Assembly: GCA_037481875.1 (NCBI GenBank) | Contig: JBBFKY010000001.1 | Coordinates: forward strand, 62,001 to 126,000 | From: Desulfosoma sp. | GTDB lineage: Bacteria; Desulfobacterota; Syntrophobacteria; Syntrophobacterales; DSM-9756 | DNA length: 64,000 nucleotides | Direction: 5' to 3' | Shown here: positions 24,149 to 29,411 of the stretch, piece after piece | Numbering within the stretch: the stretch's first letter is position 1 | How the letters are laid out: each line of letters starts with the position of its first letter | Made by a program: the position numbers and the translations under genes | The notes under the pieces: model-generated | Told to the model about the DNA's origin: nothing | The model's database searches: none | Seen by the model: only the letters and a program-made list of their open reading frames with translations

Positions 24149-24543
24149 CACCGCAGAGACGCAGAGGGCGCGGAGGCAAGGGCGCACTGCCGTGCGCCCC
24201 GGACTGTGGACTCTGGCGCTGAGACGCCGCCACAGCCCACGGGCCCGCGCCTTCGGCGCCGATCAGTTTTGCTTTTTCGGCCCTTGTAGAAAAGGGGTAG
24301 AGGTTCCTGTCGCTTGAAAGCCATCCCACGCAGGTGAAGTTCATGAGCCAGGGTCTCTTCATAAATGGATTCCAAAAGGCCGGGTCCTAAGTGCCGATGC
24401 CCTTCAATGGTCGCTCCGATCCCCTTGGATGTCTGTTCGTTCAGATCCATGGTGTGTTCTAGGCTATGGGCTGCGGCGCCGCGGCGCCGCGGCGCAAATA
24501 CCCGGCCGCCCGAAACCTCTGTGTTCTCTGTGCCTCTGCGGTT
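24149..24543. mobile_element. Repeat element A with CCGCAGAG-type inverted ends
   Basis: Left end CACCGCAGAGACGCAGAGG and right end CCTCTGTGTTCTCTGTGCCTCTGCGGTT are imperfect inverted repeats of each other. The 395-bp interior carries, on the minus strand, the start of a GxxExxY-family frame (ATG 24450), a long palindromic CGGCGCCGCGGCGCC block near 24475-24495, and a GC-rich segment with ACGCCGCCACAGCCCACGG. Elements B and C are nearly the same sequence throughout. No transposase is encoded. It is inferred to be a non-autonomous (MITE-like) element. Confidence 0.65.
24244..24450 (-). pseudogene. Truncated GxxExxY-family protein, copy A
   Basis: From the ATG 24450 the frame reads MDLNEQTSKGIGATIEGHR, then LGPGLLESIYEETLAHEL (the Gly-x2-Glu-x2-Tyr signature is changed to ESIYEE) and RGMAFKRQEPLPLFYKG. 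The match to the roughly 125-residue GxxExxY family ends about residue 60, exactly before the strands that carry the PD-(D/E)xK-like acidic residues. What follows (KSKTDRRRRRGPVGCGG) is repeat-derived; the frame then runs without a stop into the antisense of era. I regard it as non-functional as a nuclease. Confidence 0.65.
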
Positions 24544-24553
24544 TTTAAGAAAG

Positions 24554-24935
24554 CACCGCGAAGACGCGGAGGGTGCGGAGGCAAGGGCGCACTGCCGCGC
24601 CCCTGCGTGGGCTATGGCGCTGAGACGCCGCCACAGCCCACGGACCCGCGCCATCGGCGCCGATCAGTTTTGCTTTTTCGGCCCTTGTAGAAAAGGGGCA
24701 GAGGTTCCTGTCGCTTGAAAGCCATCCCACGCAGGTAAAGTTCATGGGCCAGGCACTCTTCATAGATGGATTCCAAAAGGCCGGGCCCTAAGTGCCGATG
24801 CCCTTCAATGGCCGCTCCGATCCCCTTGGATGGGAGTTCGTTCAGATCCATGGTATGTTCTGGCTATGGGCTACGGCGCCGCGGCGCAAGAACCCGGCCG
24901 CCCGAAACCTCTGCGTTCTCTGCGTTTTTGTGGTG
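24554..24935. mobile_element. Repeat element B with CCGCAGAG-type ends
   Basis: This copy starts CACCGCGAAGACGCGGAGG only 10 nt after element A ends, and closes with CTCTGCGTTCTCTGCG followed by a slightly decayed end (TTTTTGTGGTG). The interior matches A and C closely, including the truncated GxxExxY frame and the CGGCGCCGCGGCGC palindrome near 24875-24888. The bases just left of it (TTTTTAAGAAAG) are shared with the left flank of element C, so the true unit may include them. Confidence 0.65.
24612..24851 (-). pseudogene. Truncated GxxExxY-family protein, copy B
   Basis: A 79-residue frame starting MDLNELPSKGIGAAIEGHR and containing LGPGLLESIYEECLAHEL and RGMAFKRQEPLPLFYKG. Like copies A and C it leaves the family alignment near residue 60 and ends in Arg-rich, repeat-encoded residues before a stop at 24612. 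A full-length GxxExxY protein would continue with a YRLDLLV-like strand and a VELK-like strand. The shared breakpoint means the truncated form was itself copied. A peptide could be made, but no ribosome site was evident. Confidence 0.65.
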
Positions 24936-24983
24936 AAACAGCACGCCTCATCGGGAAGGGGTTTCACTCAAAGTGGCGGAACC

Positions 24984-26936
24984 TTACCGACGTTGCAGCA
25001 AACGGTCCACGGGAAGATAGACGGCGCCCATGCGGCGCGCGATTTCATACGAGCAGCCTCCGGCCATGGGATCCAGTTCCGTGTCCACAAAAATGGCTTG
25101 AATCCCCAGCCTTTTAATTTCCCGCGCATAATGAAAGGTTTCATCCACAGGATCGGCCCCGAAGGCGCTCATGTTCGGACGGCCGTCGGAAAAGAGAAGC
25201 ATCACGGGCACGGTTTCCGGATTTTTTCGTTTTTCTTGAAGAAGCAACCGAAGCCCGAGGTGAAGTCCCAGAGCAAGAGGCGTACGGCCTCCTACGGGCA
25301 AGGTATCCACAGCCGTAGCGGCATCTCGAATATTGTGGGTAAGCGGCAGCAAGACTTCGGCCGTGGTGTGCCGAAACGTGACGATGCCCAGTTTATCGCG
25401 ACGCAGGTAAAGATCCTGCAACAATGCGTCAATAACCCCTTTGGTGATGGACATGCGGTCATTGCTTCGCATGCTCGCGCTGGAATCCACCACCATCACC
25501 AGGGAAAGGCCTGTTTTTCGAGATCTTTTGCGAAGCCGAATATCGTGGGGGGCCAAAACAGGCCGGCCATTGGCCGTAGGATTTCCGTTGCGACGGCCGG
25601 CTTGATACGGAGCGGCGGCCCTCAAAGTGCCGAGAAGCGAGAGATCGACGGTGTGTTCCCCCGCTATGGGCCATCTCGACCCGTGGACGGTTCCTGAATG
25701 TTTCGCCAAGGGAAGCAGAAACCGTCTTCCCGGATGGGTGCCCGGCTGAAGGCGATGCCAAGGCATGTGAGCCAGAAGGGTGCGACTGGTCGGGCATAGA
25801 TGGGTGACACATTCCACGGGAGACATGGAATGCTTGGCTTTGGGGGAGGCCTTAGGGACATTGTGGTGCACAGGAACCCAAGGCTGCGGTTCTCCGGCTC
25901 CCGTGCCGGCTTCCGATTTCAGGAGCTCCTTCAGTTTTTCCTCATCCAGTTCGGCTTTTTCCAAAGGCGTTTTTTTCACGCGATGCGGCAGAGCCAGACG
26001 GGCCGCCAGATGAAGATCGTCCTCGGTCACACTGGTTCGACCTTCCAAAGCCGAGTGCGCTCGTGCCGCCTTGATCATGGCGATGTCGGCTCGATGCCCA
26101 TCGGTTCCCATGGCCACAGCGATTCGAGAAGCCAATTGCAGAAGATCCTCGGTGAGGGTGACGGTGTGGAGTCGTTGTCGAGCCGACTGAATCTTTTGAG
26201 CCAGAGCCTGATCCTGTTCAGCCCACCGAGACCGAAAACCTTCCGGATCCGCTTCAAACGCCAGCCGACGTTTGATGATTTCCACGCGTTCTTCCAAGGA
26301 TTCAATGCTTCGTATGGTCACCGAAAGCCCGAATCGATCCAAAAGCTGAGGCCGAAGGTCCCCTTCTTCCGGGTTCATGGTGCCCACCAGAATGAACCGG
26401 CTGGCATGACTGAAACTGATTCCTTCCCTTTCCACCACATTGCGACCTGAAGCGGCCGCATCCAGGAAAAGATCCACGATCTGATCGTTCAACAGGTTGA
26501 CCTCGTCCACATAAAGAATCCCGCGGTGAGCTTCGGCTAGAAGACCGGGTTCAAAGGCTTTGACGCCCGTTTTCAGGGCCTTTTCGATGTCGATGGTTCC
26601 TAAAAGTCGGTCTTCCGTTGTCCCGATAGGCAGATTGACCAGACGCACAGGTCTTTCCACGACGGGAAGGTTTTGCCCGGAAGCAACCTTTTCACGGCAC
26701 CAAGGGCACAAGTTTTCGACGATTTCAGGGTCACAGCGAAACGGGCAGTTTTCCACGACGCGAATGGTGGGCAAGAGATCCGCCAGAGCCCGCACCCCCG
26801 TGGATTTAGCCGTCCCTCGTTCCCCTTTGATGAGCACACCCCCCAGGGACGGATCCACCACGTTAAGAAGCAGGGCCTTTTTCATAAGGTCCTGCCCTAC
26901 GAGAGCCGAAAAAGGAAAGGTCCGTTCCGTTGCCAT
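24984..26936 (-). CDS. Single-chain ChlI/ChlD-like metal chelatase subunit (AAA+ plus VWA)
   Basis: From the ATG 26936 the protein has 650 residues; the frame is open further upstream without homology. Residues 1-340 are a ChlI/BchI AAA+ ATPase: LVGQDLMKKALLLNVVDPSLGGVLIKG, Walker A GERGTAKST (38-46), GTIDIEKAL, Walker B ILYVDEVNLLNDQ and GTMNPEEG. A variable Pro-rich linker leads to a ChlD-type VWA domain (480-650) with an intact MIDAS (Asp484-Ser486-Ser488 in VMVVDSSASM, later LLFSDGRPN). Such fusions partner with CobN-like subunits for cobalt or magnesium insertion. No large chelatase subunit is adjacent. Cobalamin synthesis would fit the B12-dependent mutase nearby, by inference. Confidence 0.88.
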   Translation of the reverse strand: MATERTFPFSALVGQDLMKKALLLNVVDPSLGGVLIKGERGTAKSTGVRALADLLPTIRVVENCPFRCDPEIVENLCPWCREKVASGQNLPVVERPVRLVNLPIGTTEDRLLGTIDIEKALKTGVKAFEPGLLAEAHRGILYVDEVNLLNDQIVDLFLDAAASGRNVVEREGISFSHASRFILVGTMNPEEGDLRPQLLDRFGLSVTIRSIESLEERVEIIKRRLAFEADPEGFRSRWAEQDQALAQKIQSARQRLHTVTLTEDLLQLASRIAVAMGTDGHRADIAMIKAARAHSALEGRTSVTEDDLHLAARLALPHRVKKTPLEKAELDEEKLKELLKSEAGTGAGEPQPWVPVHHNVPKASPKAKHSMSPVECVTHLCPTSRTLLAHMPWHRLQPGTHPGRRFLLPLAKHSGTVHGSRWPIAGEHTVDLSLLGTLRAAAPYQAGRRNGNPTANGRPVLAPHDIRLRKRSRKTGLSLVMVVDSSASMRSNDRMSITKGVIDALLQDLYLRRDKLGIVTFRHTTAEVLLPLTHNIRDAATAVDTLPVGGRTPLALGLHLGLRLLLQEKRKNPETVPVMLLFSDGRPNMSAFGADPVDETFHYAREIKRLGIQAIFVDTELDPMAGGCSYEIARRMGAVYLPVDRLLQRR

Positions 26937-27107
26937 GGCATCCACTTTTTGAATTCTTGAAAAGAATCCTCGTCTGCGAGTCGACGATGGGACACGTGCC
27001 GAAGACGCGGGCCCAAGGCCCGCTCTTGCGGCTAAACCATGGCGTGCTCCCACCGTATGACACACGCCTCAAAGTCGGTTTCAGGCATGGGCCCTTGTTG
27101 GCTCCCT

Positions 27108-27518
27108 CTAATGATCTTTGCGTTCACACAGTTCTACGAGAACGCCGTAAGTGGACTTGGGATGCAAAAAGGCGATACGGGCCCCTCCAGCACCCTTTCT
27201 CGGCGTTTGATCAATCAACTGAACCCCCTGGGCTTTCAGTTCTTCCAGGGCCGCCTCGATGTTGTCCACTCGAAACGCGATATGGTGCACGCCTTCACCT
27301 TTTTTTTCAATGAATTTGGCTACAGGCCCGTCCGGAGCCGTGGATTCCAGAAGTTCCACTTCCGTGTCTCCAACGGGGAAAAAGGCCGTGGTGACCTTTT
27401 GTTCTTCCACGGTTTCCCGGCCGTGATCGGGCAGGCCCAGAAGCTGGTGGTAGAGTTTTTGGGCTTCGTCGATGGATTTGACGGCTATGCCGATGTGGTC
27501 CACTTTGAGTACTTTCAT
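27108..27518 (-). CDS. mce: Methylmalonyl-CoA epimerase
   Basis: A 136-residue VOC-fold enzyme that interconverts (R)- and (S)-methylmalonyl-CoA. It starts MKVLKVDHIGIAVKSIDEA after AGGAGG. The metal ligands of the family are visible: His8 in the first strand, His in GEGVHHIAFRVDN, and the C-terminal Glu in YGVLVELCE. LLESTAPDGPVAKFIEKKGEG is the typical epimerase segment. Length matches the family (about 135). It is part of a broken methylmalonyl cluster: the mutase and MeaB genes lie just upstream on the same strand, separated from it by repeat element C. Confidence 0.95.
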   Translation of the reverse strand: MKVLKVDHIGIAVKSIDEAQKLYHQLLGLPDHGRETVEEQKVTTAFFPVGDTEVELLESTAPDGPVAKFIEKKGEGVHHIAFRVDNIEAALEELKAQGVQLIDQTPRKGAGGARIAFLHPKSTYGVLVELCERKDH

Positions 27519-27595
27519 GGGAGTCCTCCTTTGATGTGGGTGCATTGGGGTTGGTTTGTTCGTTTGCTTGGGTTTTGGGTTGTCGATGATTGTTT

Positions 27596-27943
27596 TTAAG
27601 AAGGCACCGCAGAGACGCGGAGGGCGCGGAGGCAGGGGCGCCCTGCCGTGCGCCCCTGCGTGGGCTGTGGCGCTGAGACGCCGCCACAGCCCACGGGCCG
27701 GCGCCTTCGGCGCCGATCAGTTTTGCTTTTTCGGCCCTTGGAGAAAAGGGGTAAAGGTTCCTGTCGCTTGAAAGCCATCCCACGTAGGTGAAGTTCATAG
27801 ACCAGGCACTCTTCGTAGACGGATTCCAAAAGGCCTGGCCCTAGGTGCCGATGCACTTCAATGGCCGCTCCGATCCCCTTGGATGTGAGTTCGTTCAGAT
27901 CCATGGTGCGTTCTAGGCTATGGGCTGCGGCGCCGCGGCGCAA
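27596..27943 (-). pseudogene. Truncated GxxExxY-family protein, copy C
   Basis: The 115-residue frame has an N-terminal portion MDLNELTSKGIGAAIEVHR, LGPGLLESVYEECLVYEL, RGMAFKRQEPLPLF, closest of the three to intact family members (Glu-Val-His-Arg and Val-Tyr-Glu-Glu preserved). Again the family match stops near residue 58 and is followed by KSKTDRRRRR and repeat-encoded residues (LRALRVSAVPS is simply the translated element end). The upstream in-frame MRRGAAAHSLERT is also element sequence. The nuclease core strands are missing. Confidence 0.65.
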
Positions 27944-27989
27944 GAACCCGGCCGCCCGAAACTTCTGTGTTCTCTGTGCCTCTGCGGTG
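27605..27989. mobile_element. Repeat element C with CCGCAGAG-type inverted ends, between mce and meaB
   Basis: The copy begins CACCGCAGAGACGCGGAGG and ends CTTCTGTGTTCTCTGTGCCTCTGCGGTG, 3 nt short of the meaB stop codon. At 385 bp it is the same unit as A and B, carrying the truncated GxxExxY frame and a CGGCGCCGCGGCGC block near 27929-27942. It splits what is elsewhere commonly a contiguous mutase-MeaB-epimerase group. Its left flank (27519-27604) is G/T-rich and ends TTTTTAAGAAGG, as before element B. Confidence 0.68.
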
Positions 27990-29374: not shown

Positions 29375-29402
29375 TCTCTGCGCTCTCTGCACCTCTGCGG
29401 TG
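29375..29402. repeat. Solo CCGCAGAG-type repeat arm between the mutase genes
   Basis: CTCTGCGCTCTCTGCACCTCTGCGGTG matches the right end of elements A and C with few differences, but no interior or second arm is present. It fills most of the 50-nt gap between the mutase subunit genes and ends about 3 nt from the ribosome site of the small subunit gene. It may be a relic left by excision or recombination. Confidence 0.6.
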
Positions 29403-29411
29403 AAATTTTCC

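Follow-up and report, generated by a model that had tools for sequence, protein, structure and literature searches.

Why should 4 kb of a Desulfosoma genome hold three copies of one short repeat, each carrying the same first half of a GxxExxY gene? The copies, here called elements A, B and C, lie in the stretch of 64,000 nucleotides that was analysed as a whole and that is referred to as the window. The original prediction saw in them a non-autonomous, MITE-like element derived from a GxxExxY gene and mobilised in trans, possibly by an intact relative elsewhere in the genome. With a probability of roughly 0.7, we read A, B and C as decayed, internally deleted and non-autonomous copies of a GxxExxY element with inverted iterated ends, the mobilisation of which would be due to the nuclease. 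The features on which the argument builds are, in window coordinates, the following.

24150–24542, minus strand: element A, running from ACC to GGT, an internally deleted GxxExxY element after an Era-like GTPase gene (KH_2 and MMR_HSR1)
24149–24175, plus strand: iterated end of A, pointing inward, three 7-bp units (end model R1)
24517–24543, minus strand: iterated end of A, reverse complement (end model R1)
24265–24432, minus strand: truncated GxxExxY frame of A, TIGR04256 positions 3–58
24555–24934, minus strand: element B, running from ACC to GGT, with the deletion of A and 12 bp away from it; right-hand end degenerate (TTTTTGTGGT)
24554–24580, plus strand: iterated end of B, weak (end model R1, E 0.12)
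24909–24936, minus strand: iterated end of B, reverse complement (end model R1)
24666–24824, minus strand: truncated GxxExxY frame of B, TIGR04256 positions 6–58
27606–27988, minus strand: element C, running from ACC to GGT, with the deletion of A and B, between a Glyoxalase_4 epimerase-like gene and meaB; its orthologues in genomes G004 and G007 are full-length
27605–27631, plus strand: iterated end of C (end model R1)
27964–27989, minus strand: iterated end of C, reverse complement (end model R1)
27719–27889, minus strand: truncated GxxExxY frame of C, TIGR04256 positions 2–58
29376–29403, minus strand: solo end (L223) of the kind seen in A, B and C (end model R1, E 0.007), near methylmalonyl-CoA mutase genes, with no partner end found nearby

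The three elements measure 380–393 bp each and are 87–92% identical to one another over 282 bp. Their inverted ends are iterated—ACC-CGCAGAG-A-CGCRGAG-GG-CGCGGAG on one side and its reverse complement on the other—and all of them contain a CGGCGCCGCGGCGC palindrome, which is present twice in A. In a folding computation, element C reaches a z of −5.4. The minus-strand frames match positions 2–58 of 116 in TIGR04256 and 2–59 of 117 in PF13366 (E 2e-16 to 8e-14), scoring 52–60 bits against curated cut-offs of 35 and 22, with the first half of the family only. All three frames depart from the family at residue 58 (...KGRKSKTD), and the breakpoint is fused in each to the same sequence, GGCGCCGA(A/T)GGCGC; it follows from the common residue and the common joined sequence that a single deletion was inherited by A, B and C. 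The missing half would have held D63, E73, K75, Q87 and Y91, which are invariant among 27 relatives, so that the frames are devoid of the D / ExK / QxxxY core of a complete protein. Among the truncated frames, dN/dS lies between 0.33 and 0.44, values that stem from just 58 codons and 11–18 changes per pair. The repeat and profile matches hence agree with the original prediction on the places of the three copies, on the ends, the palindrome and the frame common to them, on the loss of the PD-(D/E)xK-like core and on the copying of an already truncated form.

Its view of how the copies came about fares differently. A whole-genome search returned no fourth copy of the complete element, and no further GxxExxY match is present in the assembly, which is 99.6% complete. 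The intact relative put forward as a possible mobiliser from elsewhere in the genome, as well as the additional copies that were looked for, did not turn up, and within the limits of the assembly a mobiliser active today can be excluded for this genome. The same genome contains, in another place, a hairpin of two ends without a gene (G000:C12:54180–54236; L221, approximately 1472–1528), its units being of the CACAGAG type and not the CGCAGAG found in A, B and C.

What happened at these sites can be followed in related genomes. At the C site, two genomes of a sister genus (G004 and G007) carry a full-length GxxExxY gene within like ends, a genome of the same genus (G001) bears a full-length but decayed remnant and G006 a shorter one; nothing was found in G003 and G005, and nothing clear in G002. 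At the A site, G004 and G007 retain the left half of an element and G001 a possible remnant, with no element in G006. Since the sister-genus genomes carry the family at both sites, both can be taken as old, now bearing one identical internally deleted form. By the same comparison, the element at the C site is ancestral, as two sister-genus genomes retain it intact and that of the window has it in decayed form; C itself is an old insertion that lost half of its gene, a deletion that A and B have too. The regions of G004 and G007 are 88–99% identical and offer no clean empty site; most elements are common to both, from which a low or past activity follows. At one pair of loci in these genomes (L153/L152), the flanks are approximately 97% identical and the interior between the conserved ends is almost wholly different, as if interiors had been exchanged.

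The simplest account of how A, B and C multiplied, and a probable one, is local duplication, or else gene conversion between the two old sites. Approximately 12 bp outside the end of B equal the flank of C (TTTTTAAGAA(A/G)GC before ACC), a match for which either process is at least as good an explanation as transposition. The window's own copies could even stem from ordinary duplication: a simple local event, tandem or segmental, would have multiplied one ancient insertion, no nuclease being involved. For this explanation, which concerns the window copies only, the odds stand about even; the confidences that we attach to the alternatives here and below overlap and do not sum to one. It is in line with the presence of three copies only, all within 4 kb, with the C flank beside B and with the lack of an intact gene in the genome. 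However, A occupies another site, behind era, at which half an element is found in G004 and G007; this makes two independent old sites, and to homogenise the A and C sites requires recombination at least.

Beyond the window, the gene that was truncated in A, B and C is found in full. A scan of 84,980 species genomes yielded 80 loci from 19 named phyla, including Methanothrix, and both flanks are testable in 75 of them. Full-length copies with a conserved GxxExxY gene, which had been anticipated in related genomes, thereby exist on a far larger scale than proposed, and as they hold the gene inside like ends, the derivation of the window elements by internal deletion is borne out. The ends follow one design: ACC and three iterated 7-bp units (CRCRRAG) with spacers of 1–3 bp, and the reverse complement opposite. 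In the 27 usable loci from relatives, the gene flanks form such three-unit inverted repeats, whereby the unit varies by locus (CGCAGAG, CACGAAG, CACGGAG, CACAAAG, ACAGGATT and others). Both ends are present in 52 of the 75 testable loci, an inward end being found upstream in 57 and downstream in 63; the density of ends amounts to 2.5 per kb near the gene, 0.14 per kb in the rest of those loci and 0.002 per kb in Markov shuffles. Gene and ends together span approximately 420–650 bp, with a median near 450 bp. PIN-domain genes of equal size, 30 in all and drawn from the identical set of 59 relatives, served as a control: none of the 30 bears both ends and none reaches an inverted-repeat score of 30, compared with 12/27 and 20/27, respectively, for GxxExxY in those relatives.

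The ends are not only placed around the gene but are also matched to each other. Within an element, the two sides are alike at 7.09 of 9 variable positions (permuted 4.96, z 9.5), and both spacer lengths agree between left and right in 85% of cases, compared with 28% upon permutation. Paralogues within one genome (G047, G023 and G029) use different units, each with its left and right sides matched. Between protein and end distances, the correlation is weak and significant (Mantel rho 0.17, p 0.0075), and nearest protein neighbours have an identical spacer class in 47% of cases versus 27% (p 0.004). Together with the presence or absence of the unit at syntenic sites and the dispersed gene-less pairs described below, this covariation shows, by genome comparison, that gene and ends form one unit that is inherited and inserted as such. 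A divergent branch of the family (L048, L052 and L055; GFLE.VYQ and relatives) displays no convincing matched ends, and its members may be domesticated or using other ends. The protein tree of the loci contains 35 phylum changes, where 18 would be the minimum, with too few alignment columns to resolve horizontal transfer. The gene is carried by 8 of 72,556 plasmids and by none of the phages searched.

Sites with and without the unit can be compared directly. In G020, an element lies between a nuoCD-like (PF00346) and a nuoH-like (PF00146) gene and widens the intergene gap to 513 bp; in the six congeners in which this junction was read it measures about 15–85 bp, and in one more congener it is short by spacing. 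G024, with flanks 85–89% identical, keeps a decayed remnant of a gene tail and one end at this site. A second case comes from another genus: after the SRP RNA, G044 carries the full element, G052 a solo end, and G040, G042, G047, G050, G051 and G054 no end at all. Further examples are a unit between fabD and fabG in a Sphingomonas record and one between radA and an FAD-dependent gene in a Bacteroides record. The nuoCD–nuoH, SRP RNA and other examples show, as far as genome comparison goes, a unit that appears to have been gained at new sites, with flanks 70–76% identical and thus too divergent for exact junctions; the same holds for G013 versus G015, where the intergenic sequence is too divergent for a clean junction. 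Sites without the element in relatives, as the original prediction had expected, accordingly occur at the C site (G003, G005), at the A site (G006) and among the nuoCD–nuoH congeners. Target-site duplications, which had been expected too, do not: direct repeats outside 111 end pairs are not in excess, and the consensus just outside ACC is TTC. Of the MITE-like label, the anatomy stands—380–393 bp, truncated, with inverted ends—and the target-site duplication does not. After the SRP RNA, different palindromic repeats were also seen by species within the one genus (L188–L194), an apparent hotspot of small repeats.

The family, TIGR04256 or PF13366, is that of the GxxExxY protein, PDDEXK_3; the window frames represent its first half, and the end-flanked genes are full members. 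Within the unit, PF13366 is the only domain; a DDE transposase is absent, as is a target duplication, so that the unit does not qualify as a DDE insertion sequence. An AF2 model from 74 sequences has a mean pLDDT of 91, and the top ranks in Foldseek are LHK-Exo, the Cas4-family structure 4ic1 and lambda exonuclease. In VIA-align, 4ic1 is the best solved match (Z 9.9, rmsd 4.4, 100 residues aligned), ahead of the following rows at 7. Cas4 also appears, weakly, among the defence profiles, and a sequence search for solved relatives gave none that is convincing. Based on the fold matches and the conservation of D, ExK and QxxxY, full-length GxxExxY fits a solo predicted nuclease of the PD-(D/E)XK type with a RecB/Cas4/lambda-exonuclease fold, the fold alone being no proof of activity. 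The Rpn proteins, 'recombination-promoting nucleases', are also small nucleases of the PD-(D/E)XK kind that may take part in recombination; profile scans gave no sequence match to them, and we know of no iterated ends in Rpn.

Many ends occur without a gene. Modelled as DNA, they were sought in genomes with a sequence model of 28 positions, which returned up to at least 127 matches per genome, with a median of 31 in gene-bearing genomes and of 1 in those without the gene. Gene count and end count correlate with a rho of 0.64, also within one family, a figure confounded by assembly quality and kinship. Many of the ends are inward pairs 40–300 bp apart that enclose no gene, and some genomes bear more than 100 such hairpins. 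In G015, one hairpin family repeats an identical CACCACGGAGACACGGAGGGCACGGAG end chromosome-wide, its unit type being that of the G015 gene ends. The short gene-less hairpins fold with z values of −1.4 to −2.4, weaker than window element C. Internal deletion recurs, as L162 in G015 retains residues 1–64 and both ends. Two incomplete MAGs (G049 and G050) have many ends and no detected gene. Composites were noted in G015 at L161 (8300–9300) and L162 (9700–10350), each consisting of a GxxExxY element joined to the C-terminal half of another GxxExxY gene plus a further end; the outer flanks are similar at both loci, and in L162 the first gene breaks off at residue 64. The same genome also has an unrelated-looking repeat of approximately 115 bp with AGAACCTATCC...GGATAG inverted ends (L164, 5954–6069), in about 50 near-identical copies.

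How might such a unit move? The nuclease would recognise its cognate ends, probably as a hairpin of the inverted ends in single-stranded DNA, and cut there; host recombination or repair would then copy the unit. We know of no strand-transfer chemistry for a RecB-type nuclease, and help by the host is hence expected. Gene-less derivatives would be copied in trans as well, as RAYT does for REPINs. In the genome of the window, the gene is lost, and the three copies probably go back to the local duplication or gene conversion described above. In its most general form, the proposal is that GxxExxY genes are an undescribed class of selfish mobile elements of bacteria and archaea, in which a solo nuclease of RecB/Cas4 fold recognises its own ends of iterated 7-bp units, moves an approximately 450-bp unit to new sites, leaves no target duplication and disperses gene-less hairpins in trans; to this we give slightly less than an even chance. 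Counted against our main reading of A, B and C are the target duplication missing from 111 end pairs, the low or past activity in G004 and G007, G049 and G050 with many ends and no detected gene, L052 and L055 with a gene and no ends, and the ordinary duplication that could account for the window copies.

A different use of the same nuclease is conceivable. It might start recombination at the end motifs in a Chi-like or homing-like manner, and gene and ends would then pass between copies already in place, through homologous recombination and gene conversion, instead of being inserted at new sites. The relation of the fold to RecB, Cas4 and lambda exonuclease speaks for this, as do the absent target duplication, the strongly different interiors between nearly identical flanks in G004 versus G007, the breakpoint that A, B and C have in common, and the presence of the C flank on B. 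Nevertheless, new sites are occupied where relatives lack any copy, between nuoCD and nuoH and after the SRP RNA, and we consider this alternative rather unlikely. Improbable altogether is a role of the iterated ends as terminators or as regulatory elements, i.e. sites of a host or encoded regulator, that flank the gene by chance and do not delimit a mobile unit: they are indeed inverted pairs near genes, mostly intergenic and hairpin-forming, with a precedent for the regulator-site reading in Geobacter metallireducens (PMC2700814), but the whole unit is present or absent in the operons of relatives, paralogues in one genome have different matched ends, gene-less pairs exceed 100 in some genomes and the spread over 19 phyla is beyond any single regulator.

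Among known systems, the mobile-unit reading comes closest to the REPIN/RAYT pairs. RAYT (TnpA-REP) is an HUH tyrosine transposase, and REPINs are palindromes tagged by GTAG or CGTC (PMC3116915, PMC8266576). As in these REPtrons, one to few chromosomal nuclease genes per genome are flanked by their own cognate inverted repeats, gene-less inverted pairs that form hairpins are dispersed, protein and repeat co-diverge, a target duplication is not seen, and phages and plasmids are nearly devoid of the system. Unlike RAYT, GxxExxY has a predicted PD-(D/E)XK fold of RecB/Cas4 type with D/ExK/QxxxY motifs, and its ends are made of three iterated 7-bp units instead of a GTAG- or CGTC-tagged palindrome. 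Because the protein superfamily and the end design differ, GxxExxY elements are REPIN-like in their working and not members of that system. They resemble MITEs in having short derivatives, gene-less or with a truncated gene, that were made by internal deletion and keep conserved inverted ends (A, B and C; L162; the G015 hairpins), and an autonomous partner with such ends exists in other genomes, including the C site of G004 and G007, and not in that of the window; they differ by the lack of a DDE transposase relative and of a target-site duplication.

In the open-access literature searched, GxxExxY is named, never in connection with repeats; no description of iterated inverted ends or of mobility was found for GxxExxY, PDDEXK_3 or PF13366, and the iterated strings occur in no relevant paper, although an earlier description is possible. 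The nearest case is again G. metallireducens, where inverted pairs of iterated heptamers or octamers are annotated as 'global regulator binding sites' (PMC2700814). They resemble the ends described here in being inverted pairs of tandem 7–8-bp units at variable distance and in many copies per genome, and differ in their unit sequences, in being regulator sites by description and in a main text without a link to GxxExxY (PMC2700814).

Judged by genome comparison, the element appears to be a form of mobile DNA that has gone unrecognised in many bacterial phyla and an archaeon—a nuclease-based counterpart to RAYT/REPIN. A family of unknown function, located in most tested cases within matched iterated ends across 19 phyla, thereby gains a likely substrate, and widespread dispersed intergenic repeats gain a likely source gene. 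If true, the reading as selfish elements would explain the very common dispersed repeats of the 'ACCACAGAG-CACAGAG-CACAGAG' type. For annotation, a warning arises from N-terminal starts of the 'HRDTETQR' type, which are translated element ends; they were seen at L079, L114 and L130 as N-termini such as MNHRDTETQRD, and many GxxExxY gene starts may be misassigned.
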